A stretch of 42,752 nt of DNA from Bacteroidota bacterium (GTDB taxonomy: Bacteria; Bacteroidota; Bacteroidia; Chitinophagales; Chitinophagaceae): the NCBI GenBank assembly GCA_030706735.1, contig JAUZNZ010000035.1, forward strand, positions 1 through 42,752. The letters are read 5' to 3'. Below the pieces are notes generated by a model that worked only from the letters and a program-made list of their open reading frames with translations, did not search any database and was not told the DNA's origin. Both the position numbers and the translations under genes were made by a program. This document shows, piece after piece, positions 9,183 through 25,015 of the stretch. Numbering within the stretch: position 1 is the stretch's first letter; every line of letters starts with the position of its first letter.

Positions 9183-9596
9183 ATGCTGAAAGTCGAACAT
9201 ATCGGCATTGCTGTAAAGAGCCTGTCCGCATCGATCCCCTTATTCGAGCGCCTGCTGAACACACCCTGTTACAAAACCGAGCTCGTCGAAGGAGAACAGG
9301 TGGACACCGCCTTTTTCAAACAGGGTGAAACGAAGATCGAGCTCCTGGAAGACAAAGCGCCCGGTGGAGAAGGGGTGATCGGCAAATACCTCCAAAAACG
9401 GGGAGAGGGGGTGCATCATATCGCCTTTGCAGTAGCCGACCTGAAGGCCGAAATGCAACGCCTCGCTGAGCAAGGGTTCACCCTATTGAACGAGCAGCCG
9501 AAATTGGGTGCAGATAATAAATGGGTCTGCTTCCTCCATCCCCGCGACACCCAGGGGTTGCTGGTTGAATTATGTATGGAAAGAGCCGAGCCTTGA
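9183..9596 (+). CDS. mce: Methylmalonyl-CoA epimerase
   Basis: 137 residues, the usual length for this glyoxalase/VOC-fold enzyme, which interconverts (S)- and (R)-methylmalonyl-CoA in propionate and branched-chain metabolism. Two beta-alpha-beta-beta-beta modules are visible. The first starts with VEHIGIAV (metal-ligand H6), the second with GEGVHHIAF (ligand H78 or H79), and the C-terminal ligand is E129 in GLLVEL. The ATG at 9183 starts the conserved fold directly. No mutase gene is in the window. The 3' end overlaps the start of the next gene by 25 nt, so the kinase genes may be co-transcribed from here. Confidence 0.93.
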   Translation: MLKVEHIGIAVKSLSASIPLFERLLNTPCYKTELVEGEQVDTAFFKQGETKIELLEDKAPGGEGVIGKYLQKRGEGVHHIAFAVADLKAEMQRLAEQGFTLLNEQPKLGADNKWVCFLHPRDTQGLLVELCMERAEP

Positions 9597-12565
9597 GAGT
9601 TCCCCTATTCATATTTGCCATGCTGCTGCTCCAACCCGCAGAGGCGCAGCTCCTGCCCATCCGCAACTACACCACCAGGGAAGGGCTGAATGCGAATGGC
9701 ATCTATGCGATCCTGCGCGATTCGAAGGGCGTGCTCTGGGTCGGCACCTATAATGGCGTGAACTGGTATGACGGAAGCCGCTTCATACAACCCCCGATGA
9801 GCACCCGCAGCGGTCAGATCTATGTCACGAGTTTCAGGGAGGATAGCGCCAGACAGGTTTGGGTGACCAGCTGGTATAGCGGACTATATAAGTTCTCGGA
9901 AGGTCGCTTCACCAACTACTTACCCGATACCGTCCACATCGAGTCGCAGTCCAATAGCCTCTTCGATCTCCTGGAGCTGGGCGGCGGCCGCTATCTTGCC
10001 GCCACCGATCAAAATGTCTGGCTGTTCAACGGTCATCACTTCACCCTTTTCGATCCGCACAACCCGGCGCTGCAACAGCAGATCCTGACGCTCGCAAAAA
10101 CCCCGCGGGGCGATATCCTCATCGGCTACGGCCGGGGCGTAGTCTGGTACCGCCGGACGGGCAGTAACGGGTATGTCTATGCGGGAAAACTCTTCGACGA
10201 TTTGGGAGTCAACAAGATCCTCATCACGGGTCAGGAATGCTGGATCGCCACGGCCCGCGGGTTGCGCTTTTGTCCCGATCTGGACGACGCCATGCAAAAC
10301 CCCGGCGGATCGTCCGGCGCCTTTATCGAAAAAGGCCTGGTTGACAATATCTTCATCGACCGGGAAAAAAATATCTGGTTTACGGGCGAAGGCGGCCTGC
10401 ACAAGTTCAACATGCGCGGAAACACCCCGTCTGCCGAACAAATCTATACGCCCGCCAATGGCCTGCCTTCATCGGCGGTACGCGCCATTTATACTGATCA
10501 GGAAGGCATCACCTGGCTGGGCACCGACTATGGCCTGGCCAAGCTTAATGAGAATTACTATCGGTTCTATCCCATCCAGGATGAGGATCCTACCCAACCT
10601 GACAATAAAGGAGACGCCAGCATCATCGCCATTTCGGATGACCGTTTGGGTCGTCTTTGGCTTGGCTCCTATGAGGGCATCTACCGCATGCAGCATGCGC
10701 AGGCCTTCGAGAGCAGGCCCCGCGATCCGGCGCAACATGGCGGTCATGCCGGTTTCACGTATTCGATGAGAAAGGACCGCGCGGGTACTCTATGGGCATG
10801 CACCGCCACCGGCGTGTATACCATCGGATCCGGCGGTCTCGAAAAACGCTCGCCCCAACAGATCGTTGCGATGGACGAGGACAAAGAGGGCGATCTTTGG
10901 TTCGGCGCCATGGATGGGAAGATATATACCTTGCGCGACCATGAGGGCTCGGGTGGCCCGGATGGTTCGGGTGGCCCCGGTGGCTTGTGCGAAGTGCCCA
11001 TCCCGAAACTTATCAACGAAAAGATCAACGCCCTCTACCGCGATCCCGCCGGGTTCTTTTGGGTCGGCTATGCCCTGACGGGCGTGCGAAAGTATCGCCT
11101 GGCGCCCGACGGTCACCTGGAGCTGGTGAAGGAATTTACCGGCCGTAATGGCTTCGAGAATCTCCGCGTCCGTTCATTTTGCGACGACCGGCGCGGCCAC
11201 CTCCTGGTCGGCACACGCACCGACGGGATCTATGTCTTCGATTGGAAGACAGACGCGACGATCGCCCATATCAATACGGGCAGCCAGTTGGGAGGCAACT
11301 GGGTCAAGGCGGCCGCCATCGGGGGCAGACAGGTCTACCTCGCAACGAATAACGGCCTGGACATCCTTGACGCGGACAATTATACCGCCAAACCGAAACA
11401 TATCGCCTTTCGCAACGACGCGGTGCCCGTGGAGTTCAACACCGTCTATTTGCAGGGCGATACCGTATGGCTGGGCACGGCCAAGGGGGTCCTGGAGTAC
11501 ACGCCCTTCAGGCAGCAGAAGAATACTCTCCCTCCCCCGGCCTACATCATGAAGGTCACGATCGACGGATCGGTCGACAGCCTCGTGCCGCCCTTCAGCA
11601 TGGCCGGCGAGTTGCCGAAACTCTCCTACCGGCAGAACAATATCGCCTTCGATTTCGCCGGCCTCAGCTTCCTCGACGAGGAAAATGTGCGTTATACCTA
11701 TCGCATGGAGGGACTGGACAAGGACTGGAGCCCGGTAACGGACAGGCGCTATGTCAACTATAGCCATCTCTCCCCGGGCACGTACCGCTTCCGCGTGAGC
11801 GCGCAGAACAATGACGGCGTATGGAGCGAGGTGCCCGCTTCGATGTCTTTCATCATCGCGACCCCTTTCTGGCAGACCTGGTGGTTCCTATCGCTGGTCG
11901 TCGTCACTTTAGCGGCCCTGATGTACGCCTTCTATCGCTACCGTCTGCAGCAGGCCCTGCAAATAGAACGATTGCGCGTTAAGATCTCCACCGACCTGCA
12001 TGACGATATCGGATCGACCCTCAGCTCGATCTCCATCCTGAGCGATATCGTGCTCCGCGAGGCAGGCCAGGAGCAGCACCAGGGCATGGTACAGGAGATC
12101 AAAGAAAGCTCCATCTCCCTGATGGAGAAAATGGACGATATTGTGTGGAGTATCAACCCGAGGAATGACGAGCTGGAAAGCCTCATGCTGCGCATCAAAC
12201 GTTTTGCGGCGCAATTGTTCGAGGCCAAGGGCATCGACTATGAGATCGATATCGAGAATAGCATCCGCCATCTGAAGCTGCCCATGGAACACCGCCAAAG
12301 CGTTTACCTGATCATGAAGGAAGCCATCAATAACCTCGTCAAGTACGCCGATGCAGGCAGGGCCTTTATCCGGGCCGAGTCCGAGGGCCAGTTTCTCAGG
12401 GTGCAGATCAGCGACGACGGGAAGGGCTTTGTCTATGAAACCGTACGCACCGGCAACGGGATCGCCAATATGAAGAGCCGTGCCGATCTGATGGGAGCGA
12501 CGCTGCACCTCAGTTCTTCACCCGGGAAGGGTACCACGGTGATCCTCACGCTTAAAATGAAATGA
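9572..12565 (+). CDS. Sensor histidine kinase with periplasmic two-component propeller
   Basis: 997 residues. Signal peptide at about 1-25 (RVPLFIFAMLLLQPAEA). About residues 26-680 are propeller repeats with the pattern G-x-LW-x-G-T-x-x-G-(V/L) (GVLWVGTYNGV, GITWLGTDYGL, GRLWLGSYEGI, GDLWFGAMDG, DTVWLGTAKGV). A Y_Y_Y module covers about 685-765 (RYTYRMEGLDKDW), with one membrane helix at about 770-792. The HisKA_3 dimerisation domain carries the phospho-histidine in DLHDDIGSTLSS (near 808) and a HATPase domain follows (N box EAINN near 918, DDGKGF, GNGIANM). Unlike many Bacteroides hybrid sensors it has no receiver or DNA-binding domain. Its propeller is a putative sensor of an external ligand, unknown here. 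The ATG at 9572 overlaps mce by 25 nt and is the only start giving a proper signal peptide. The stop overlaps the next kinase by 4 nt (ATGA). Confidence 0.92.
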   Translation: MYGKSRALRVPLFIFAMLLLQPAEAQLLPIRNYTTREGLNANGIYAILRDSKGVLWVGTYNGVNWYDGSRFIQPPMSTRSGQIYVTSFREDSARQVWVTSWYSGLYKFSEGRFTNYLPDTVHIESQSNSLFDLLELGGGRYLAATDQNVWLFNGHHFTLFDPHNPALQQQILTLAKTPRGDILIGYGRGVVWYRRTGSNGYVYAGKLFDDLGVNKILITGQECWIATARGLRFCPDLDDAMQNPGGSSGAFIEKGLVDNIFIDREKNIWFTGEGGLHKFNMRGNTPSAEQIYTPANGLPSSAVRAIYTDQEGITWLGTDYGLAKLNENYYRFYPIQDEDPTQPDNKGDASIIAISDDRLGRLWLGSYEGIYRMQHAQAFESRPRDPAQHGGHAGFTYSMRKDRAGTLWACTATGVYTIGSGGLEKRSPQQIVAMDEDKEGDLWFGAMDGKIYTLRDHEGSGGPDGSGGPGGLCEVPIPKLINEKINALYRDPAGFFWVGYALTGVRKYRLAPDGHLELVKEFTGRNGFENLRVRSFCDDRRGHLLVGTRTDGIYVFDWKTDATIAHINTGSQLGGNWVKAAAIGGRQVYLATNNGLDILDADNYTAKPKHIAFRNDAVPVEFNTVYLQGDTVWLGTAKGVLEYTPFRQQKNTLPPPAYIMKVTIDGSVDSLVPPFSMAGELPKLSYRQNNIAFDFAGLSFLDEENVRYTYRMEGLDKDWSPVTDRRYVNYSHLSPGTYRFRVSAQNNDGVWSEVPASMSFIIATPFWQTWWFLSLVVVTLAALMYAFYRYRLQQALQIERLRVKISTDLHDDIGSTLSSISILSDIVLREAGQEQHQGMVQEIKESSISLMEKMDDIVWSINPRNDELESLMLRIKRFAAQLFEAKGIDYEIDIENSIRHLKLPMEHRQSVYLIMKEAINNLVKYADAGRAFIRAESEGQFLRVQISDDGKGFVYETVRTGNGIANMKSRADLMGATLHLSSSPGKGTTVILTLKMK

Positions 12566-14571
12566 CCTTGCGCAGGAGTCTGACCATTTGCTTATCGATC
12601 CTCCTTCCTTTCCTGGCGCATGCCGGCCAGGGAGCGGACTCCGTGCAGCCCTCGCCCACCCGGCAGCCCTCGCCCGCCACGGCGCCCCTGCTCAACTATG
12701 TCTCCGACCACCGGCTTACCCTGACCGGCGCCGTGTCCTGCCTGATCGATCCGGCCCGGACCGGCGGCATCCCGGATAATAATGGCGCCTCCGACCTTCT
12801 CTCCGCCGGGATCGACGAGATCCGCCGCCGCCCCTTTACTGTCTCCTTCGATTCAATGCAAAGCCAGCTGAACCGCGATCCCAGGCCTTTCACGTTCTGG
12901 ATAAAGTTCGGGTTGCGAAATAACGCCGACAGCGCGCTCGATCTCTCCCTGTATTGCGGGAACCTGAATTATGTCAGTCTGTATTTCGTGACCGCCGGTC
13001 GGGTAGACCAGCAGGTGAAGGCCGGCGACCTCCGGCGCGCGCCACCCAATAGCTCCTATGCGCAGCGAAGGACATCCTCCCTTCCCCTCCATATCGCGCC
13101 GGGCGTGTCGGGCGAGGTCTTCGTCGAGATCAGGCAACGAACGGATGAATTTGATTTCGACGGCCTGGAACTCTATGACGAACCGGCGCTCAATGCCCTG
13201 ACCGTCCGGTACACGGCCCGGAGCAACCACTATGTCATCTTTCAATTGCTGTTCCAGGGCCTGTTGCTCTGCCAGCTTCTTTATGTCTTGTTCCAATGGC
13301 TCATGATCCGCAGGCGGGAATACCTCTATTATTTCTTTTACCTGCTCGTGCTCGGTTTATACTTTCTTAGCAAGCAGGAGTCGCTCTTCGGCATGGAGCT
13401 CCTATTCGCCCGCTGGCCCCTGCTCAGGATCTACTTCGGCAAGACCCTGCTCGCGTTGCCGTATTTTCTCTACTTCCGCTTTGTACGGAGCTTTCTCGAC
13501 ATGGCGGTCAATTATCCTGCCCTCAACCAATGGGTGAAACGGGTGGAGTATTTTCTGCTGGCCTATCTCGTCTTCGACCTGGGGCTGATCTTTTTCAGTT
13601 TCAACCGCCGCCTCCAAACGGAGATCTTCACCTACGTCCTGCTGGCCGTGTTCGGACTGGCGACCTCCTTCATGGTCTATCTTTTCCGGAGGCGCCAGGC
13701 CCTGGTCTATTACATTATTTCGGGCAGCCTCGCCGCGGCTACGGGGAATATCATCGGCCTGCTGGTCAGCTATATTCAATTCAACCGGCATATCGACCTG
13801 GGCATAACGGACATTCTCCTCTTCGCGCAGGTCGGCATCGTGGTGGAGATGATCTGCTTTACGGCCGGCCTTAGCTACAAGGGCCAGGCCGCCGAACGGG
13901 AAAAGGTAAAAAGCCAGGAAAAACTGATCGAGCAACTAAAGGCCAATGAGCTGTTGCAGGGGCGGATGCAGCATATCCGCAACAAGATCGCCCAGGACCT
14001 GCACGACGATATCGGGTCCACGCTCAGTTCCATCTCCATCCTGAGCGGCCTGGCACTCGAAGAGCGGAATAGCAGTCATGCGCTGGAGACGATGAACGAG
14101 ATAAAGGACAGCTCGATCATGCTGATGGAAAGGATGGACGATATCGTATGGAGCATCAATCCGAGCAACGATTCGCTGGAAAACCTGCTGATCCGGGTCA
14201 AGCACTTCGCAACCACCTTGTTCGAGGCAAAGGAGTTGAACTATTCGATCGACATCCCGGATGATATTCATGAGGTCAGGCTGCCGACGGACTACCGCCA
14301 GCATATCTACCTCGTGCTGAAGGAGGCGATCAATAACCTCGTGAAATATGCGAATGCCACGAAGGCGGAGATCAGGATCAGCTTCGACACCCCCACGGTA
14401 CTGGAGGTCTCCGTCAGGGATGATGGCCGCGGCTTCGATGCCTCCGGACAATCCAGGGGCAATGGCATACCGGGCATGCGACGCCGCGCGGAGCTGATGA
14501 ATGCGGAATTGACGGTGCAGTCGGCGCCCGGTCAGGGAACCCTGATCGTCCTGAGGGTCACGATCTTGTGA
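12562..14571 (+). CDS. 7TMR-DISM sensor histidine kinase
   Basis: 669 residues. A signal peptide (ICLSILLPFLAHAG) leads to an extracytoplasmic 7TMR-DISMED2-type beta domain at about 90-215 (FWIKFGLRN.., LYCGNLNYVSLYF). Seven membrane helices follow at about 222-440, then a coiled linker, a HisKA_3 domain with DLHDDIGSTLSSISILSG (about 478-495), and a HATPase domain (EAINNLVKYA, DDGRGFD, GNGIPGM). DISM receptors are thought to sense carbohydrates or other small molecules; no ligand can be read here. Its transmitter shares long identical stretches with the preceding kinase (DDIGSTLSSISILS, MDDIVWSINP, EAINNLVKYA). The two genes therefore look like a transmitter duplication fitted with different sensors. 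Coupled upstream by ATGA; the response regulator starts 98 nt downstream. Confidence 0.92.
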   Translation: MTLRRSLTICLSILLPFLAHAGQGADSVQPSPTRQPSPATAPLLNYVSDHRLTLTGAVSCLIDPARTGGIPDNNGASDLLSAGIDEIRRRPFTVSFDSMQSQLNRDPRPFTFWIKFGLRNNADSALDLSLYCGNLNYVSLYFVTAGRVDQQVKAGDLRRAPPNSSYAQRRTSSLPLHIAPGVSGEVFVEIRQRTDEFDFDGLELYDEPALNALTVRYTARSNHYVIFQLLFQGLLLCQLLYVLFQWLMIRRREYLYYFFYLLVLGLYFLSKQESLFGMELLFARWPLLRIYFGKTLLALPYFLYFRFVRSFLDMAVNYPALNQWVKRVEYFLLAYLVFDLGLIFFSFNRRLQTEIFTYVLLAVFGLATSFMVYLFRRRQALVYYIISGSLAAATGNIIGLLVSYIQFNRHIDLGITDILLFAQVGIVVEMICFTAGLSYKGQAAEREKVKSQEKLIEQLKANELLQGRMQHIRNKIAQDLHDDIGSTLSSISILSGLALEERNSSHALETMNEIKDSSIMLMERMDDIVWSINPSNDSLENLLIRVKHFATTLFEAKELNYSIDIPDDIHEVRLPTDYRQHIYLVLKEAINNLVKYANATKAEIRISFDTPTVLEVSVRDDGRGFDASGQSRGNGIPGMRRRAELMNAELTVQSAPGQGTLIVLRVTIL

Positions 14572-14616
14572 GCCCCGCCACGCGGGTTCGCCGTGCTTGC
14601 CGGTTATTCGGTAAAT

Positions 14617-14663
14617 TCATATGAATATCCGATTGTGGAAATTAGGATTTGTCGCCATATTTG
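14617..14663 (+). promoter_or_regulatory. Promoter of the response-regulator gene with shared upstream element
   Basis: The element TCATATGAATATCCGATTG (14617-14635) ends in the -33 TTG. A 20-nt spacer follows, then CATATTTG (14656-14663), one mismatch from the -7 box TAnnTTTG. A perfect 12-bp palindrome ATTCATATGAAT spans 14615-14626 and could be an operator for a dimer. The predicted start of transcription lies at about 14667-14670, at the ATG. The same 19-nt element recurs at 15321-15339 before the OmpA operon with identical spacing. Confidence 0.65.
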
Positions 14664-14669
14664 AATATA

Positions 14670-15317
14670 ATGATCAAAGTAGGCATTGTCGAGGACAACA
14701 GCACATTGAGAAACAGCCTGGAGAACCTGTTCAACCGGACGGATGGAATGAAATGCGTGGTTTCTCTGAACAACCTGATGAACGTCGTCAGCGAGGTAGG
14801 AAAAGCTTTGCCTGATGTGGTGCTGATGGACATCGGGTTGCCCAATATCTCCGGGATCGAAGGTGTACGCACGGTGAAATCGAACTTTCCGAAGATACAG
14901 GCGATGATGTTCACGGTTTTCGACGACGACGAAAAGATCTTCGATGCCATCCGGGCCGGCGCATCGGGATACCTCCTCAAGCGGACGCCTCCCGAAGAGA
15001 TCGTTCAGGCCATACGCGACCTCTATCACGGCGGCGCTCCCATGACCGCCAGCATTGCGCGAAAGGTCATCCAGTCTTTCCAGGGCGCCCCTTCCACCGT
15101 CGTGGAGGACTATCGCCTGACGGTTCGCGAGAACGAGATCCTCTACTCGCTTGTCGACGGGCTCAGCTACAAAAAGATTGCCGACAAATACTGCGTCAGC
15201 ATCAGCACCATCCGCACGCATATCTGCAATATCTATAACAAGCTCCACGTGAACAGCAAGGCCGAAGCCGTGGCCAAGGTTCTGGGGCCCTCCAAGCCCT
15301 CTTCCCGGCGGGTATAA
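14670..15317 (+). CDS. LuxR/NarL-family response regulator
   Basis: 215 residues. The receiver domain has the acidic pair E8/D9, phospho-acceptor D54 in VLMDIGLP, T82 in MMFTVFDD and K104 in YLLKR. A linker precedes a C-terminal LuxR helix-turn-helix (LTVRENEIL..LSYKKIADKYCVSISTIRTHICNIYNKLHV, about 150-200). NarL-type regulators partner with HisKA_3 kinases, and both upstream genes encode such kinases, so it is probably their shared output. The ATG at 14670 gives the canonical receiver start MIKVGIVEDN; the in-frame TTG at 14649 would add seven unneeded residues. A promoter sits directly before the ATG with room for little or no leader. The gene after it carries the same upstream element, which suggests autoregulation plus control of the secreted operon. 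Confidence 0.92.
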   Translation: MIKVGIVEDNSTLRNSLENLFNRTDGMKCVVSLNNLMNVVSEVGKALPDVVLMDIGLPNISGIEGVRTVKSNFPKIQAMMFTVFDDDEKIFDAIRAGASGYLLKRTPPEEIVQAIRDLYHGGAPMTASIARKVIQSFQGAPSTVVEDYRLTVRENEILYSLVDGLSYKKIADKYCVSISTIRTHICNIYNKLHVNSKAEAVAKVLGPSKPSSRRV

Positions 15318-15320
15318 AAA

Positions 15321-15367
15321 TCATATGTTCATCCGATTGACCAGGGGCTGCTTTTTGGTTCCCTTTG
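15321..15367 (+). promoter_or_regulatory. Promoter of the OmpA-led operon with shared upstream element
   Basis: TCATATGTTCATCCGATTG (15321-15339) matches the element before the regulator gene at 16 of 19 positions and ends in the -33 TTG. A 20-nt spacer leads to TCCCTTTG (15360-15367), one mismatch from TAnnTTTG. The predicted leader is about 33 nt, to the ATG at 15405. Confidence 0.6.
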
Positions 15368-15404: not shown

Positions 15405-16649
15405 ATGAAAAAGAGCCTTCTCCCTCTCGCCTTATTCGCCGCCGGTCTCGTCATGAGCGGCAACCTCCGCGCACAGGTCAATGACCCCGGTCAGGTGGCC
15501 AAGGACGGCGCCACCAATCACGTCAATGACAATATCAGTAATGGCGTGGACAACGGTTTGAACAAAACCGAAAATGCCATCAAGGGCCTCTTTAAAAAGA
15601 AAAACAAAACGGCCCCCGCCGCCAATACTAATGCCAATGCGGCCGGCACGAACAGCAACGGTACGGCAGCTCAGGCCACACCCGCCGGCCCGGTAAGCTT
15701 AAAGACTTACGCCAACTATGATTTCGTGCCCGGCGAAAAGATCATCTTCGAAGACAATTTTGCGGACGACCAGGACGGCGAATTCCCCGCGCACTGGAAG
15801 CTCGGAAAGGGCCAGGCCATTATCAATAAAGTGAATGGCGGGGAGCAGGCTTTCTTCCTGACCGAAGGGAATTATGTTCGCGTTGCCCCTCGTATGAAGA
15901 CGGAAAAGGACTACCTGCCCAGCGATTTTACGGTTGAATTCGATTTCTTCTTTACGGACGGCTCCTATCCGCCGGTATTACTGTTTACCACCAAGGACGA
16001 TCAAAACAGGAACGTCAACTTCGGTAAAGAGGTCAGTACCGGGTATTTCCCTAATGACCTTTCGGCCGATTATCCCGGCGACCAGACCAACTATGCCGGC
16101 AAATGGCATCATGCTGCCATGATCAAGAAGGGTAACCAGATCAAATGTTATGAGGATCAATATCGCGTGCTGGTCATGCCGGATTGTGGTAGTTGCGAAG
16201 TATCCTTTGTCGAGGTCGGCGGGATCGGGAGTACGGAAAATCCCATCGTATTCAAGAACTTCCGGATCGCGGAGGGAGGCAGTATGAACATGATCGGCCA
16301 GAAGTTCACCGATGCGAAGATCATCACCCATGGCATCAACTTCGACATCGACAAGGCAACGATCAAGCCCGAGAGCATGGGCACCCTGAACATGATCGTC
16401 AAGATCCTTCAGGGCAACCCCGACCTCAAGTTCGAGATAGACGGCCATACCGACAATACGGGTAACGCGCCGCACAATCTCGCCTTGTCCCAACAGAGAG
16501 CCGATGCTGCAAAGGCACAACTGGTAGCTATGGGGATCGATGCCTCCCGCCTGACTACAAAGGGCTTTGGCGACAGCAGGCCCATTGCAGATAACTCCAC
16601 GGTCGAAGGCAAGGCCAACAATCGTCGCATTGAGTTCGTGAAAATGTAA
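15405..16649 (+). CDS. OmpA-family outer-membrane/peptidoglycan-binding protein
   Basis: 414 residues. Signal peptide MKKSLLPLALFAAGLVMSG..RAQ. Next comes a short region with NHVNDNISNGVDNGLNKTENAIKGLFKKKNK and an Ala/Asn-rich linker. A middle domain at about 100-295 (IIFEDNFADDQDGEFPAHW, FTVEFDFFF) resembles a concanavalin/LamG-like beta-sandwich. The C-terminal OmpA domain (about 305-414) carries the peptidoglycan-binding signature (INFDIDKATIKPES, EIDGHTDNTGN, LSQQRADAAKAQL, NRRIEFVKM). Such proteins sit in the outer membrane or periplasm and bind the wall through the OmpA domain. The ATG at 15405 is chosen over the in-frame GTG at 15372 because it begins the signal peptide. First gene of a four-gene operon; the next start is three bases after the stop. 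Confidence 0.9.
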   Translation: MKKSLLPLALFAAGLVMSGNLRAQVNDPGQVAKDGATNHVNDNISNGVDNGLNKTENAIKGLFKKKNKTAPAANTNANAAGTNSNGTAAQATPAGPVSLKTYANYDFVPGEKIIFEDNFADDQDGEFPAHWKLGKGQAIINKVNGGEQAFFLTEGNYVRVAPRMKTEKDYLPSDFTVEFDFFFTDGSYPPVLLFTTKDDQNRNVNFGKEVSTGYFPNDLSADYPGDQTNYAGKWHHAAMIKKGNQIKCYEDQYRVLVMPDCGSCEVSFVEVGGIGSTENPIVFKNFRIAEGGSMNMIGQKFTDAKIITHGINFDIDKATIKPESMGTLNMIVKILQGNPDLKFEIDGHTDNTGNAPHNLALSQQRADAAKAQLVAMGIDASRLTTKGFGDSRPIADNSTVEGKANNRRIEFVKM

Positions 16650-16652
16650 TTT

Positions 16653-18767
16653 ATGACCCCTCTTCCCTCCGCCGGCACATGCCTTCTCGCCGTGCTGCTA
16701 ATCTGTGGACGACCGGCACATGCACAACCCGGAAGTCCCACAGGCGCTCAGGGCGCAGGCAACCAGAGCGCCGGCTACACCGGTGCCACCAAAGACAGCT
16801 CTCTTTTCGGGGACAGCCATCATTTCCTCTGGTTTACCGGCCATTGGAGCACGACAAAAAAGCATGTGTTCGTCGTGGATAAGGGCTCTGGCGCCTTTCC
16901 TGCCGGCGGAAGCAGCGGTGGGGGCAGCGGTGGGGGCAGCGGCGGAACCGTGACGGTCAATCCCGACGGGTCCGTGAACCTATCCGGCCCGGGCGTGGAC
17001 GAATGGAATAAGAAGGTCGGGGAGGCCCAAAAGCAAATTGATGATTGGGTGCAGCAACTCAGCAATCCGGCCAACAATGCCGACCTGCGTACCCAGCACC
17101 TGAACAATCTGCTCCTGCCCGAGGCACAGGAACAGCAGCAGCAATGGAGCGAGTACCGGATAGATAAAAAACAAGACGTACTGACACCGGATACCCGACC
17201 GGGCGATACCCCTCCTTCCCAGCCTGCGGCGCCACAGCGGACCTTGAACGATGCCGCGACGGACATGTGCAACGCGGAAAAGGCGGACTATGACAAGGTC
17301 ATGGCCTACTACAAATCGATCAAGAAAGAGAAGGAGGCAGACCTGAACGTCCCGCCGCCCCCCGAATTCGAATACGACTGTTATGTCTGTGACTCCGACC
17401 GCAGAAAGGTGTATGACACCACGATCGCCCACTATGTCAGAGACTTCATGCACCCCGAGGATAGCATGATCCGGAAGGCACTCGGGATGATGAGGAGCTT
17501 TCTATTGCTCAATGGGAACGAAAATACGATCAGCGGCGAGGTCGACCAGGCCTTCAGTAAGGCTGGGGCCTGTCATTACCTGAGCTACGGAGAGTTAAAC
17601 GATGCCATGCTGACCATCATCACGCACATGTACCTCCGGGCCGAAAAACTAGTGGATAAATACAAAAATGATTTCAGGGCCTGCGAAGCCATCGCGCGCA
17701 CTTTTGTGACCGTGGCCAGGAATTTTGCATTGGTTACGGGAAATACGTCCTCCTCGGATTCCTATTTGGCTGAACTCGCCCCCATCGTGGCCCGCGCCTT
17801 CGACTTCTATTATCAACAGGTGAAGCAAAATAACTGGAAGCAGGTCGCCAATATTCCCCTGCTCATGGGTCTGGCGCGGCAGATCTCACTGCTCGGCAGC
17901 GATATGGGAGATTATCGGTTCCAAGACTATTTTGAAAAATTGAAAGTGATCATGAATGACTTTGTATTGACCATCGACATGGACACCAAGTTCGGCAAGG
18001 ATCAGGGCTATTGGATCTCGCATGTCAAAGGTCAGTGCCATATCGGTCCTGATTTTGACCAGGACTCCAACCAGTGTTACAAGTGGGTGGTGCTGGACGA
18101 GAAGATGCAGGACCCGAATGGCTTTTACAAAACCAAGGCCCTCCAGGAGATCGATTGTAAGCTGATCGCCAACCAGATCACCGGCTCGCAATACAGCCCC
18201 GTTTATGTCGGCACAAAAAAATATACGATCACGCTGAAAGGTCTGCGCATGGATTTCTGCAGTCCCGGACAGGACACGATCATCCTCTCCAGTTTCTCTC
18301 CCAGTCCCAGGGACAGCGGCTGGTGGCGCATTCCCCATGCTCCCCTGCAAAACCTCGGGATATCTGGAGAACAGTTCTTTGTCGACGTTAAGAAACAAAA
18401 AGAGCTGGTCAATTCCGGCGAGGCGCAAAAGGCGGCCAACAACTACCAATCCCAAAGTGAGCAAATGATCGCTCGTATGAAACAGATGGCGGAGCAGATG
18501 AAAAGCGATACCGGGCGAAAGACCTTCCAGGACTACCAGAAGATCATGGAAATGGCTAACCAGGTCAAGCAATCCGCCAACCAGGGCGTCCTGGCCAAGG
18601 TCATGTTCCTCGACTTCGAGCTGCCGGTGAAGAACAACCAACGGGAACTTGTAAAAAAGACCTTCGACGGCAAGCAGATCAATCCCCAGGCCGCGGGCGC
18701 GGTCGTATATGCCAATTTCACCGTTCTTATTGAAAACGAAAGCGTGCCTCGTCCGAAACAGCCGTAA
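16653..18767 (+). CDS. Unrecognised secreted protein, 704 aa (operon gene 2)
   Basis: I do not recognise the family. Signal peptide LLAVLLICGRPAHAQ within residues 1-24, so the product is exported. Residues about 86-105 are a Gly/Ser-rich linker (GGSSGGGSGGGSGG). A long, mostly helical body rich in Gln, Lys and Asp follows, with a CYVC pair near 245 and a CHIGPDFDQDSNQCYKW segment near 470. A Met/Gln-rich predicted coiled region lies near 590-640 (QMIARMKQMAEQMKSD), and a beta-like tail ends the protein. No T9SS sorting domain, lipobox or catalytic motif is evident, so it is probably periplasmic or associated with the outer membrane. It starts three bases after the OmpA gene and is followed nine bases later by the next secreted gene, so co-expression is very likely. 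Confidence 0.8.
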   Translation: MTPLPSAGTCLLAVLLICGRPAHAQPGSPTGAQGAGNQSAGYTGATKDSSLFGDSHHFLWFTGHWSTTKKHVFVVDKGSGAFPAGGSSGGGSGGGSGGTVTVNPDGSVNLSGPGVDEWNKKVGEAQKQIDDWVQQLSNPANNADLRTQHLNNLLLPEAQEQQQQWSEYRIDKKQDVLTPDTRPGDTPPSQPAAPQRTLNDAATDMCNAEKADYDKVMAYYKSIKKEKEADLNVPPPPEFEYDCYVCDSDRRKVYDTTIAHYVRDFMHPEDSMIRKALGMMRSFLLLNGNENTISGEVDQAFSKAGACHYLSYGELNDAMLTIITHMYLRAEKLVDKYKNDFRACEAIARTFVTVARNFALVTGNTSSSDSYLAELAPIVARAFDFYYQQVKQNNWKQVANIPLLMGLARQISLLGSDMGDYRFQDYFEKLKVIMNDFVLTIDMDTKFGKDQGYWISHVKGQCHIGPDFDQDSNQCYKWVVLDEKMQDPNGFYKTKALQEIDCKLIANQITGSQYSPVYVGTKKYTITLKGLRMDFCSPGQDTIILSSFSPSPRDSGWWRIPHAPLQNLGISGEQFFVDVKKQKELVNSGEAQKAANNYQSQSEQMIARMKQMAEQMKSDTGRKTFQDYQKIMEMANQVKQSANQGVLAKVMFLDFELPVKNNQRELVKKTFDGKQINPQAAGAVVYANFTVLIENESVPRPKQP

Positions 18768-18776
18768 ACTATCGTT

Positions 18777-19724
18777 ATGAAGAAATATCCATACGCTTCA
18801 CTAGCCCTCACCATCACCGCCCTCGCCGCCATCGCGCTCATGCCGGCCGGGGCCCTCGCACAGAAGCCGGCGCATGTGAAGCTCAATAGCCTGTTAAGCC
18901 GGATTCCTATCCCGCAATCCTCGGCCGCCTGCTATGCGACCTGCACGACGACAACGGACGCCTCCGGTGTAACCTCGATCAAAGATCTTGGCCCCGCGTT
19001 CACCACCTTACAGGACGAGCTCAAATCCTTGATGATGGCCGATATGAGTGCGATGAACAATCCGGCGGCGCCCAAATCCACGCCCCAGGCCCCGACCGCA
19101 GACGAGATCGCGAAAATGCAGGCTGACGCGATGGCGAAGGCCCAGGCCTATCAACAAGGGGGCGGGGCCAATACCGCGGCCATGATGCAAGCACAGGCGC
19201 AAGCCCACAAGCAGGCCACGGCTCCGTCGAAGGCCAACCTCCTCGCCATGCAAAACCTCAGTAAGGCCGGCGAGGCGAATCAAAAAATCCAAAGCATGCT
19301 GATGGAGGTCAGGCAAAAAATGGTTGCGCTTCACAAGGAGGAACCGCAAATCCCACCCAATTGCCCCGAAGTAAGGCAAGGCAGCTATGTCGGGCCGACC
19401 TGCGCATGCGAATATGCCCGCGGGGTTACGGCCGAGAAGAACCGGGTCACGGTCATGGATCATTATATCCAGCAGAGAAGTGCGATCATCCGGAACGCGA
19501 TCGGTCAGATACAGGTTCAGCTGGGGATCGTAGATCAACTCATGGAAGACACCAAATACGGTGACGCCATCACCGATCCGACCTTGCTTCAATTACTTTG
19601 GTCCGCCCAGCGGCAGGCTATGAGCGGGGTCGTAGAGATGCTTGGCGCCTCCAGCGGCGCCTGGACTGATGGCTCCAACACCTATTTGAGCCTCGTCAAC
19701 GCACAAGTGAATCACTGTAAATAA
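18777..19724 (+). CDS. Unrecognised secreted protein, 315 aa (operon gene 3)
   Basis: Family not recognised. Signal peptide at residues 1-29 (LALTITALAAIALMPAGALAQ). The mature protein begins with a CYATC cysteine pair and contains a low-complexity Ala/Gln/Met-rich helical middle (about 75-190, with MQADAMAKAQAYQ and AAMMQAQAQAHKQ). A second cysteine cluster lies near 205-220 (NCPEVRQGS..PTCACEY), and a helical C-terminal part ends in NHCK. The cysteines suggest disulfides outside the cytoplasm. ATG at 18777, nine bases after the previous stop. Role unknown; its place in the operon suggests it acts with the OmpA-family protein and the two other secreted proteins. Confidence 0.8.
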   Translation: MKKYPYASLALTITALAAIALMPAGALAQKPAHVKLNSLLSRIPIPQSSAACYATCTTTTDASGVTSIKDLGPAFTTLQDELKSLMMADMSAMNNPAAPKSTPQAPTADEIAKMQADAMAKAQAYQQGGGANTAAMMQAQAQAHKQATAPSKANLLAMQNLSKAGEANQKIQSMLMEVRQKMVALHKEEPQIPPNCPEVRQGSYVGPTCACEYARGVTAEKNRVTVMDHYIQQRSAIIRNAIGQIQVQLGIVDQLMEDTKYGDAITDPTLLQLLWSAQRQAMSGVVEMLGASSGAWTDGSNTYLSLVNAQVNHCK

Positions 19725-19730
19725 TTGCCC

Positions 19731-20915
19731 ATGCTTCGCGCAAATACCCTGTTCTACCTCATGTTCCTCTGGGCTCTCGCCGTTCCCTGCACAGCCTGCT
19801 CGCAAAGCAACTGTCCCCAGATGCCCGCGGACTGCCCGGTAGAGGACTACCCAAACCTCGACCTTTCGGAAGACAGCGTCAGCAAGCTGGGCAACCCGAT
19901 CATCCCGCAGGAGGTCGCGATGGAACACTTCCTGCGCCGCCGGACGACGGCTCTGATGAAGCGGATCGCGCAAAAAGAGGGTTGGGAGGTGACCGAATTG
20001 TCCGAAGGCGGCGCCTCCGGCTATCGCGACCTGCCGCCGCATGATACCCCCTTGAATTATGCGCTTCGTCCGCCGCATTGGTTCGAAATATCCTTCCAGT
20101 TTATCATCAACAAGGATTCGCTGGCGGCCTGGGCAGCCTGGATCAAGGATCTGAGCGAACGGCGCCTGGCCGACGTAAACCAATATGCCAGCCGCATGGC
20201 CTCGGTCGAGGATAAGCGAAAGGCCTATATGGACTCGGCGAATTACTATGGTGACCTGAAGGCCAACTACATGACCGCCCATATGGCCGGCTACCAGCAG
20301 GCGTTGATGTCCGGGAGCAAGTCGGGAACCGCTGCGTATGAAAAAGCGGTAGACGCCTATGACAAAAAAGTAAACTATTGGATCAATAAGGCCACCGACC
20401 TGCAAAAAGATGCGTCCAGCGAAAAGAGGCAGAGCGACGCCGAGGAGGAAAAGAATTCGGTCGGCCAGCGTTACCACGACGCGACCGTGGTCACGGTCGA
20501 ATTTCGGTTCAATGGGGAAAATGCGCTCACGAATGAAGCCCATGCGGCCGGCGAGGCGTCGGGCAGTTCGTCCGGCGGCAATCCGTCCGGCGCCTCCGGT
20601 TACAGCCTCGCGCGCTGGTATAGCAATCCGAAACCTTATCTGAAGGACCCGCTGGCGCTCTACACCCATTCACGAAATTTTGTGCTGCTGCTTGACGGCC
20701 CTTGGAATCTGCATCCCGACGCAAATGGGATTTTCTACCCATCCTTCCGCTCGAACAAGCAGGCCATTGACCAGCGGACGCCTAAATCGATCAAGAGTGA
20801 CCGCATACAGGCGATCAGTATCCATATCGCCGGCAATAAAGCAGGCATCGGCCGCGTGCTCGCGGATCTTTCGGCCGCGGAATTAAGAAGCTCGCTCAAA
20901 GAGCATTCACAGTGA
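19731..20915 (+). CDS. Unrecognised secreted protein, 394 aa (operon gene 4)
   Basis: Family not recognised. The ATG at 19731 starts a signal peptide (LFYLMFLWALAVPCTACSQ); an in-frame TTG at 19725 overlaps nothing useful. The CTAC segment is a poor lipobox match, so signal peptidase I cleavage is as likely as lipidation. The mature N-terminus is Cys/Pro-rich (SNCPQMPADCPVEDYP). A long charged helical, probably coiled-coil, segment covers about 140-250 (DLSERRLADVNQYASRM, KVNYWINKATDLQK). After a Gly/Ser linker (GSSSGGNPSGASG) a C-terminal domain has RNFVLLLDGPWNLHPD. Last gene of the operon, six bases after the previous stop. The repeat-marked AT-rich island begins immediately after it. Confidence 0.8.
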   Translation: MLRANTLFYLMFLWALAVPCTACSQSNCPQMPADCPVEDYPNLDLSEDSVSKLGNPIIPQEVAMEHFLRRRTTALMKRIAQKEGWEVTELSEGGASGYRDLPPHDTPLNYALRPPHWFEISFQFIINKDSLAAWAAWIKDLSERRLADVNQYASRMASVEDKRKAYMDSANYYGDLKANYMTAHMAGYQQALMSGSKSGTAAYEKAVDAYDKKVNYWINKATDLQKDASSEKRQSDAEEEKNSVGQRYHDATVVTVEFRFNGENALTNEAHAAGEASGSSSGGNPSGASGYSLARWYSNPKPYLKDPLALYTHSRNFVLLLDGPWNLHPDANGIFYPSFRSNKQAIDQRTPKSIKSDRIQAISIHIAGNKAGIGRVLADLSAAELRSSLKEHSQ

Positions 20916-24672: not shown

Positions 24673-25015
24673 CTAATCGGTTGCACCTAATGAGTCCAGT
24701 TGCTCTTTAATCCATTTGAAATAATACTCCCTTCCTAAGGCATTCATCATCATAATATCATAATTATGTTGCTCCTCAATCAAATAATATCGACTCATTG
24801 GTTTTACCGGCCATATGAAGGTCAGACACAAGAAATAGTCGATCTATGCATGTGGTGTCTCTGTTTAACATACATTTGATTAGACTCTCTACTGTTCTCA
24901 TTTCTGCATCGGATTGTCCTCTGCAATCTGCGAATAAGACAAACAAAGCAGCGACCAGTCCTAAAAGCATCCCTTTTTCCGAGGATGACGTGTTATGGAT
25001 AAAGAAGGATCTCAT
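24673..25015 (-). pseudogene. Frameshifted small secreted-protein gene
   Basis: From the ATG at 25015 the frame encodes MRSFFIHN then a hydrophobic segment LLGLVAALFVLFADCRG and continues to NRDTTCID, ending at a TGA at 24778-24776. The next frame picks up at about 24843 as DYFLCLTFIWPVKPMSRYYL and runs to KWIKEQLDSLGATD and a TAG at 24675-24673, with clearly protein-like composition. One extra base near 24838-24846 (plus-strand GTCGATCTA) explains both halves as one gene of about 113 residues. The hydrophobic segment could be a signal peptide; DC is a poor lipobox. A sequencing error is the alternative. Confidence 0.6.

Follow-up and report, generated by a model that had tools for sequence, protein, structure and literature searches.

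The regulator locus

The window analysed here, the whole 42,752-nt stretch of contig JAUZNZ010000035.1 from a Bacteroidota bacterium of the Chitinophagaceae, contains a two-component system followed by a gene for a protein with a C-terminal OmpA domain and three further genes (Table 1). The response regulator matches the Pfam domains Response_reg (E 1.9e-21) and GerE (E 2.4e-13), and it matches VraR, DevR and NarL chains over both domains. It has the receiver and GerE helix-turn-helix domain that place a protein among the NarL/FixJ (LuxR-type) response regulators. Residue Asp54, the predicted phospho-acceptor, aligns with the aspartate of VraR and DevR, and the recognition helix, SISTIRTHICNI, starts at residue 177. 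The spacing of the OmpA, 704-, 315- and 396-residue genes suggests that they form one operon.

The region from 9572 to 14571 encodes two HisKA_3 kinases with distinct sensors, a two-component propeller and a 7TMR-DISM module, in genes that overlap by 4 bp and lie ahead of a single regulator. In orthologous loci, the long kinase match is usually of either the propeller or the 7TMR-DISM type.

Table 1. Features of the regulator locus, with positions in the window.
Feature	Position	Strand	Basis
Second histidine kinase: Reg_prop, Y_Y_Y, HisKA_3, HATPase_c; 4-bp overlap with the 7TMR-DISM kinase	9572..12565	+	Pfam; position
Presumed partner kinase with 7TMR-DISM, HisKA_3 and HATPase_c; ends 45 nt 5' of operator 1	12562..14571	+	Pfam; position
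Perfect 12-bp palindrome ATTCATATGAAT, judged incidental	14615..14626	.	Upstream of the regulator in 0/30 orthologues
Putative operator 1, 16-bp dyad TCATAT-GAAT-ATCCGA, 5' of the response-regulator gene	14617..14632	+	Position; orthologue conservation; exact element only twice in genome
-33 element TTG adjoining operator 1	14633..14635	+	Position
-7 box CATATTTG, one mismatch to TAnnTTTG, 20 nt past TTG	14656..14663	+	Position; spacing in orthologues
215-aa response regulator of LuxR/NarL type, proposed to read the operators	14670..15317	+	Pfam Response_reg, GerE; DevR/DosR alignment
Putative operator 2, 16-bp dyad TCATAT-GTTC-ATCCGA, 5' of the OmpA operon, 3 nt past the regulator stop	15321..15336	+	Position; clade dyad at OmpA homologues
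-33 element TTG adjoining operator 2	15337..15339	+	Position
-7 box TCCCTTTG, one mismatch to TAnnTTTG, 20 nt past TTG	15360..15367	+	Position
Target gene, C-terminal OmpA domain, 414 aa, signal-peptide-like start (by eye)	15405..16649	+	PF00691, E 2.8e-24; sequence
Downstream gene, presumed same operon, 704 aa, without Pfam match	16653..18767	+	
Downstream gene (p315), presumed same operon, 315 aa, without Pfam match	18777..19724	+	
Downstream gene (p396), presumed same operon, 396 aa, without Pfam match	19725..20915	+	

Two predicted promoters with a shared element

A 19-nt element occurs twice on the forward strand, as TCATATGAATATCCGATTG at 14617-14635 and as TCATATGTTCATCCGATTG at 15321-15339. 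The initial annotation had claimed that the two copies match at 16 of 19 positions, and they do, with the differences confined to positions 8-10. Its description of the promoters is borne out at both sites as well: TTG forms the 3' end of each 19-mer and is followed, after exactly 20 nt, by an 8-mer with one mismatch to TAnnTTTG. The consensus reported for Bacteroidetes sigma-A promoters is TTTG at -33 and TAnnTTTG at -7 (PMC6847099). Among the 1437 TTGs on both strands of the window, five have a -7 box with at least five of six bases at exactly this distance. Both of the exact elements, the only ones there are, have such a box, which is therefore unexpected by chance. A scan of the window at up to three mismatches finds three places, compared with a mean of 0.48 in shuffled sequence, where three were reached in 1 of 100 shuffles. 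The match at 24898, which has three mismatches, was set aside as likely due to chance.

A 16-bp dyad as the putative operator

The putative operator is a 16-bp NarL-like dyad, TCANAT-N4-ATNYGA, that ends directly before the -33 element. The 7-2-7 sites reported for NarL consist of inverted half-sites spanning 16 bp (PMC7419079, PMC4549865), and the dyads in the window have this size. Each of the two forms four of six outer pairs. In the 31 dyads at the first site, before the regulator gene, four or five of the six outer pairs form in 24 sequences, three in 6 and two in L054, and the dyads of paralogous systems form up to six. The initial annotation had also stated that a perfect 12-bp palindrome overlays the first element. 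The palindrome is present, with its centre 4 bp upstream of the dyad centre, but it lies upstream of the regulator in none of 30 orthologues and is ruled out as the operator. The comparison thus supports the dyad TCATAT-N4-ATCCGA as the candidate operator in the window.

For comparison, the best 80 of 99 confirmed loci were taken from named genomes according to the similarity of their regulators, and the orthologue set consists of 30 loci (L033-L062) with regulators of 62-84% identity, which are orthologues or close paralogues. By best match to a 22-nt consensus, derived from the same sequences that it then scored, all 30 have an element like that of the window before the regulator. The match is at least 17 of 22 in 27 of the 30, compared with 23 of 3100 random windows drawn from these loci; the remaining orthologues, L053, L054 and L057, score 16, 14 and 15. 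Positions T1, T6, T12 and A16 of the dyad are invariant in all 31 sequences (orthologues and window), and NANNTTTR lies exactly 20 nt past the element in 28. The -33 place is occupied by TTG in only 10 of the 31 and by other bases in 21. Six of the seven loci in the divergent group L053-L059 have TAGAAT as their left arm and three have ATCCTA as their right arm; the second sites of L053, L056 and L057 pair TGGGAY with RTCCCA, so both arms have shifted. In 25 of 31 sequences (L033, L039-L062), the upstream (kinase) frame has its stop codon within the dyad, such that conservation of the left arm at the first site may be partly coding, although both sites in the window are intergenic. The ATG of the regulator follows the -7 box by 3-6 nt in 27 of the 31 (in the window, 14663-14670), which predicts a near-leaderless regulator mRNA.

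At the second site, the sequence fetched for 19 of the 30 loci includes an OmpA homologue, and a dyad of the clade sequence stands in the right register before it in 16 of these, with L044 added by a profile scan. In L040 and L047, neither the dyad scan nor the profile scan of the 19 loci found a clade-type site before the OmpA homologue. A generic dyad scan reaches threshold in 18 of the 19 but also in 243 of 950 random windows drawn from these loci, so reliance is placed on the 16 clade-sequence dyads; the generic matches in L044 and L047 are not of the clade type. In L059, the OmpA homologue lies about 3 kb from the regulator and the dyad is still present.

Some congeners keep the genes apart. 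In congener G194, the regulator is on contig C152, an OmpA homologue (43% identity) on C119 and a p396 homologue (30%; L162/L235) on C103, and each of the two homologues has a copy of the element with no mismatches to the loose pattern. A copy without mismatches stands before a weak p315 homologue in G398, and a copy is likewise found in G408, but with 19 rather than 20 nt to the -7 box. These two p315 homologues (L233, L243) have 24-25% identity to p315 with E values of 4e-13 and 9e-12. A close regulator was not found in G398 or G408, both of which are incomplete genomes.

Copies in the source genome and in the family

The genome-wide scan for the element that the initial annotation had proposed did not turn up many copies at unrelated sites. 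In the 5,048,036-bp source genome, TCATATGNNNATCCGATTG has two exact copies, one at one mismatch and one at two, and a reversed-pattern control has none. The looser pattern TCANAT-N4-ATNYGATTG-N20-TNNNTTTG is found at three places with at most one mismatch and at two more with two mismatches, again with none in the reversed control. The three are the two promoters of the window and G000:C35:67463-67509, all with the same spacing. The last is an unlinked promoter, with 20 nt to TGTTTTTG, and the product of the gene downstream has a signal-peptide-like start; the element thus extends to one promoter of the same genome beyond the two first described. A match on C63 with two mismatches has no -7 box at the right place and was set aside as likely due to chance.

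The pattern was also sought in 394 genomes of the family, where it occurs at up to one mismatch in 82; the reversed control gives 5 matches, as counted from the listing. Most matches are of the TCAKAT...ATCYGA type or of the commoner TCACAT...ATGYGA type. Matches of the ATCYGA type, classified by eye, are found in 8 of 18 genomes with a close regulator, compared with 9 of 376 without (Fisher p 6e-8), where a genome without a close regulator is one with a best E above 1e-75. In one of these nine, G330, the site is next to another NarL-type regulator. At this locus (L167), a TCATAT...ATCCGA site adjoins a NarL-type regulator that has the helix SVGTVRSHIM and is only 28% identical, so the same operator may be read by another clade. 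A promoter class TCACAT-N4-ATGYGA-TTG-N20 occurs in G066, G131, G172 and others, with up to six matches in one genome, and likely represents a larger regulon of a related regulator clade.

A recurring layout among related regulators

Paralogous NarL-type regulators of the same genome have other dyads in the same place, for example TCCCATAATGATGGGATTG and TCCCATCATCATGGGATTG, which flank a regulator on C24, and a paralogue's own dyad is often repeated before the next gene. Of the seven regulators nearest to the query, a grouping by E-value made after the sequences had been seen, six have an upstream dyad score that is matched by at most 11 of 200 shuffles. The seventh, L172, fails the shuffle test because its dyads are 15 bp long. 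Among 19 more distant regulators of the genome, one passes. The dyad at the second site of L172 is TACCAC-N3-GTGGTA, one base short, and is followed by TTG and, by eye, 20 nt to TAATTTTG.

The spacing was examined in 74 regulators that had been fetched by homology and reduced at a 90% redundancy cut, 73 of them with upstream sequence. Loci selected by motif (L113-L167) were left out, as were L168, which is the same place as the window, a set of 41 non-Bacteroidetes or unassigned relatives (L072-L112; 31-35% identity) and matches missing the C-terminal region. With the dyad at offset 0, a spacing of 20 nt is found upstream of 18 of 73 regulators and downstream of 30 of 74, compared with 0-5 at spacings of 16-19 and 21-27; a spacing of 18 gives none on either side, and 22 gives 3 upstream and 1 downstream. 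Under the strict rule, 37 of the 74 have at least one site with a spacing of 20, and 37 have neither. The signal is weaker outside close orthologues. At a 60% cut, the spacing of 20 occurs upstream in 4 of 28, compared with 2 each at 19, 21 and 22, and downstream in 9 of 29, compared with 3 each at 21 and 25. In the 41 relatives L072-L112, a spacing of 20 was found at no upstream and no downstream site; spacing 19 occurs at 1 upstream and 3 downstream sites, and spacing 22 at 2 upstream and none downstream.

Covariation of dyad and recognition helix

Both sites reach a score of at least 11 in 32 of the 74 regulators. In these 32, the two dyads of one locus agree at 10.03 of 12 arm positions, compared with 6.29 between loci, and none of 20,000 permutations gave a value as high. 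The agreement within a locus exceeds that with other loci in 10 of 10 clusters.

A confident dyad (score of at least 12) is present in 51 of the 74, and in this set the similarity of dyads follows that of recognition helices when the receiver and the rest of the helix-turn-helix are controlled (partial r 0.44, reached in none of 2000 permutations). The rest of the helix-turn-helix adds nothing (partial r 0.005). The dyad sequence therefore tracks the recognition helix beyond overall relatedness, although receiver identity, with the helix given, still has a partial r of 0.39, so the control does not take out inheritance completely. An association that was noticed after the fact in the same data involves residue 179 of the regulator: position 4 is C in both half-sites for 18 of 20 regulators with an acidic residue there, compared with 0 of 31 without. 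Counted by 60% clusters, C4 occurs in 12 of 14 acidic and 0 of 4 non-acidic clusters (p 0.005); residue-base associations are also strong outside the helix-turn-helix, so shared ancestry contributes. Among nine new regulators, seven have a dyad of at least 12, and C4 is present in all six acidic ones. The single non-acidic regulator of the seven, with Phe, also has C4, contrary to the rule. The other two of the nine, both acidic, have dyads below 12, and the better dyad of L250 is without C4.

Puia dinghuensis carries two paralogous systems (L057, L033) in which both the helices and the dyads (TGGGACATTTGTCCCA, TCATATCTTTATCCGA) differ. The paralogue dyad TGGGACATTTGTCCCA resembles the DosR box.

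Proposed mechanism and comparison with known systems

By binding the dyad, the regulator very probably activates its own gene together with the OmpA operon and one or more unlinked genes. In the proposed sequence of events, a neighbouring HisKA_3 kinase would phosphorylate the regulator, which would then bind the dyad as a dimer centred near -43.5. The dyad abuts, with its last base, the -33 TTG of a putative sigma-A promoter of the Bacteroidetes kind, in which the distance to the -7 box is always 20 nt, and the bound regulator would recruit RNA polymerase to weak promoters. The regulator would thereby raise its own expression by positive autoregulation, probably from a near-leaderless mRNA, and switch on the OmpA operon and the unlinked gene. 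The sites, their geometry and conservation, the private code and the covariation with the helix are computational results; binding, phosphorylation, activation rather than repression, the operon structure and the transcript starts are all predictions from sequence. An activator site abutting the -33 element, as put forward in the initial annotation for autoregulation and operon control, is supported by the orthologue conservation, the private dyads and the covariation with the helix, with the dyad as operator in place of the palindrome to which that annotation had drawn attention.

Sites of class-II-like activators are centred near -41 to -45. The dyad adjoins the -33 element with a centre at -43.5, which lies within this range, and the 90% set peaks at offset 0 and spacing 20. 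The numbering follows promoters of F. johnsoniae, for which G at -5 and a start 4-5 nt past the -7 box are reported (PMC6847099), so the dyad would extend from about -51 to -36. Dependence on an activator is suggested by the lack of TTG at -33 in most first-site promoters (TTG in only 10 of 31) and by the off-consensus -7 boxes of the window. For comparison with the predicted near-leaderless transcript, leaderless mRNAs reportedly make up 5.5% of the mapped ones in F. psychrophilum (PMC9723704), and 87% of predicted transcripts in F. johnsoniae are reported to carry leaders longer than 10 nt (PMC6847099).

E. coli NarL is reported to activate yeaR through a single 7-2-7 site that lies immediately upstream of -35, and ogt through one centred at -44.5 (PMC7419079). 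As at yeaR-yoaG and ogt, the layout described here combines a NarL-type regulator, 16-bp inverted half-sites and a single site upstream of the -33/-35 element. Unlike those sites, the half-site is TCANAT rather than the NarL heptamer given as TACCCCT (PMC4549865), the promoter is of the Bacteroidetes -33/-7 kind with 20-nt spacing, and the candidate operators flank the regulator's own gene, where the upstream frame frequently has its stop within the dyad.

Mycobacterial DosR/DevR belongs to the same family, and its alignment to the window regulator (phmmer E 1.5e-24) is free of gaps over residues 1-201. The base contacts reported for DosR, Lys179, Lys182 and Asn183 (PMC4082495), align without gaps to Ser179, Arg182 and Thr183 of the window regulator, and positions 179 and 183 vary among the dyad types found here. 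Unlike DosR/DevR, the window clade has other half-sites and another sigma system, and no shared signal is known. Recognition rules for the LacI and IclR families have been derived from comparing factors with their sites, for LacI by way of local gene regulation (PMC2978694, PMC8222616). The present case differs from these codes in that it concerns NarL-type response regulators of Bacteroidetes in a fixed promoter register.

Alternative explanations

The dyad might be the operator of the regulator but serve mainly for repression or to restrain the regulator gene by feedback. NarL is reported to repress or activate depending on the promoter, as at frdA (PMC4549865), and most first-site promoters have a fair -7 box (NANNTTTR in 28 of 31). 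This reading is unlikely, given that the site lies upstream of and adjoining the -33 element rather than over the -33, the -7 or the start, in the place from which NarL is described as activating yeaR and ogt, and that the -33 place is other than TTG in 21 of 31 sequences, as expected of activator-dependent promoters. The element might alternatively be read by another, unlinked transcription factor, such that the neighbouring regulator is merely one of its targets; it does occur in 9 of 376 genomes without a close regulator and in G398 and G408. The same private dyad stands at both gene ends in 32 of 74 regulators, however, the dyad follows the recognition helix of the regulator more than the rest of the helix-turn-helix, and the ATCYGA-type element is associated with the regulator across genomes, all of which make an unlinked reader improbable.

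Conservation at the first site could instead reflect coding constraint on the kinase C-terminus, with no operator involved, and the upstream-frame stop inside the dyad in 25 of 31 sequences fits such a constraint. The right arm is non-coding yet conserved, operator 1 of the window lies 45 nt past the kinase stop, and no kinase gene precedes operator 2 or the unlinked copies, so coding constraint is a highly improbable explanation of the site. The two copies could also stem from a recent local duplication or repeat with only coincidental promoters, considering their high match and their separation of within 0.7 kb. Yet the 20-nt spacers share 28% identity between the first and second sites (31 loci) and the flanks 34% (20 loci), and both positions are conserved across genera. 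Local duplication is ruled out by the spacer identity and has almost no probability left. Activation by the neighbouring regulator from the dyad is the preferred reading.

Significance

A literature search, in which coverage of subscription journals was thin, found no description of this layout in Bacteroidetes. Many NarL-type regulators of the Chitinophagaceae, and some of other Bacteroidetes, probably have a 16-bp operator of their own, which stands in one fixed promoter register both at the regulator's promoter and at the adjacent target operon; the recognition code of the family could then be read from genome sequence alone. What is new is a recurring layout in which the locus of a regulator would reveal its operator. 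A separate prediction is that the regulator gene gives a near-leaderless transcript, in a phylum for which the sources cited above report leaderless mRNAs as a minority. If the layout of a shared operator in a fixed register is true, it would lead to regulon prediction for uncharacterised two-component systems, and it would make the protein-DNA specificity of the NarL family testable by swaps of residues and bases.
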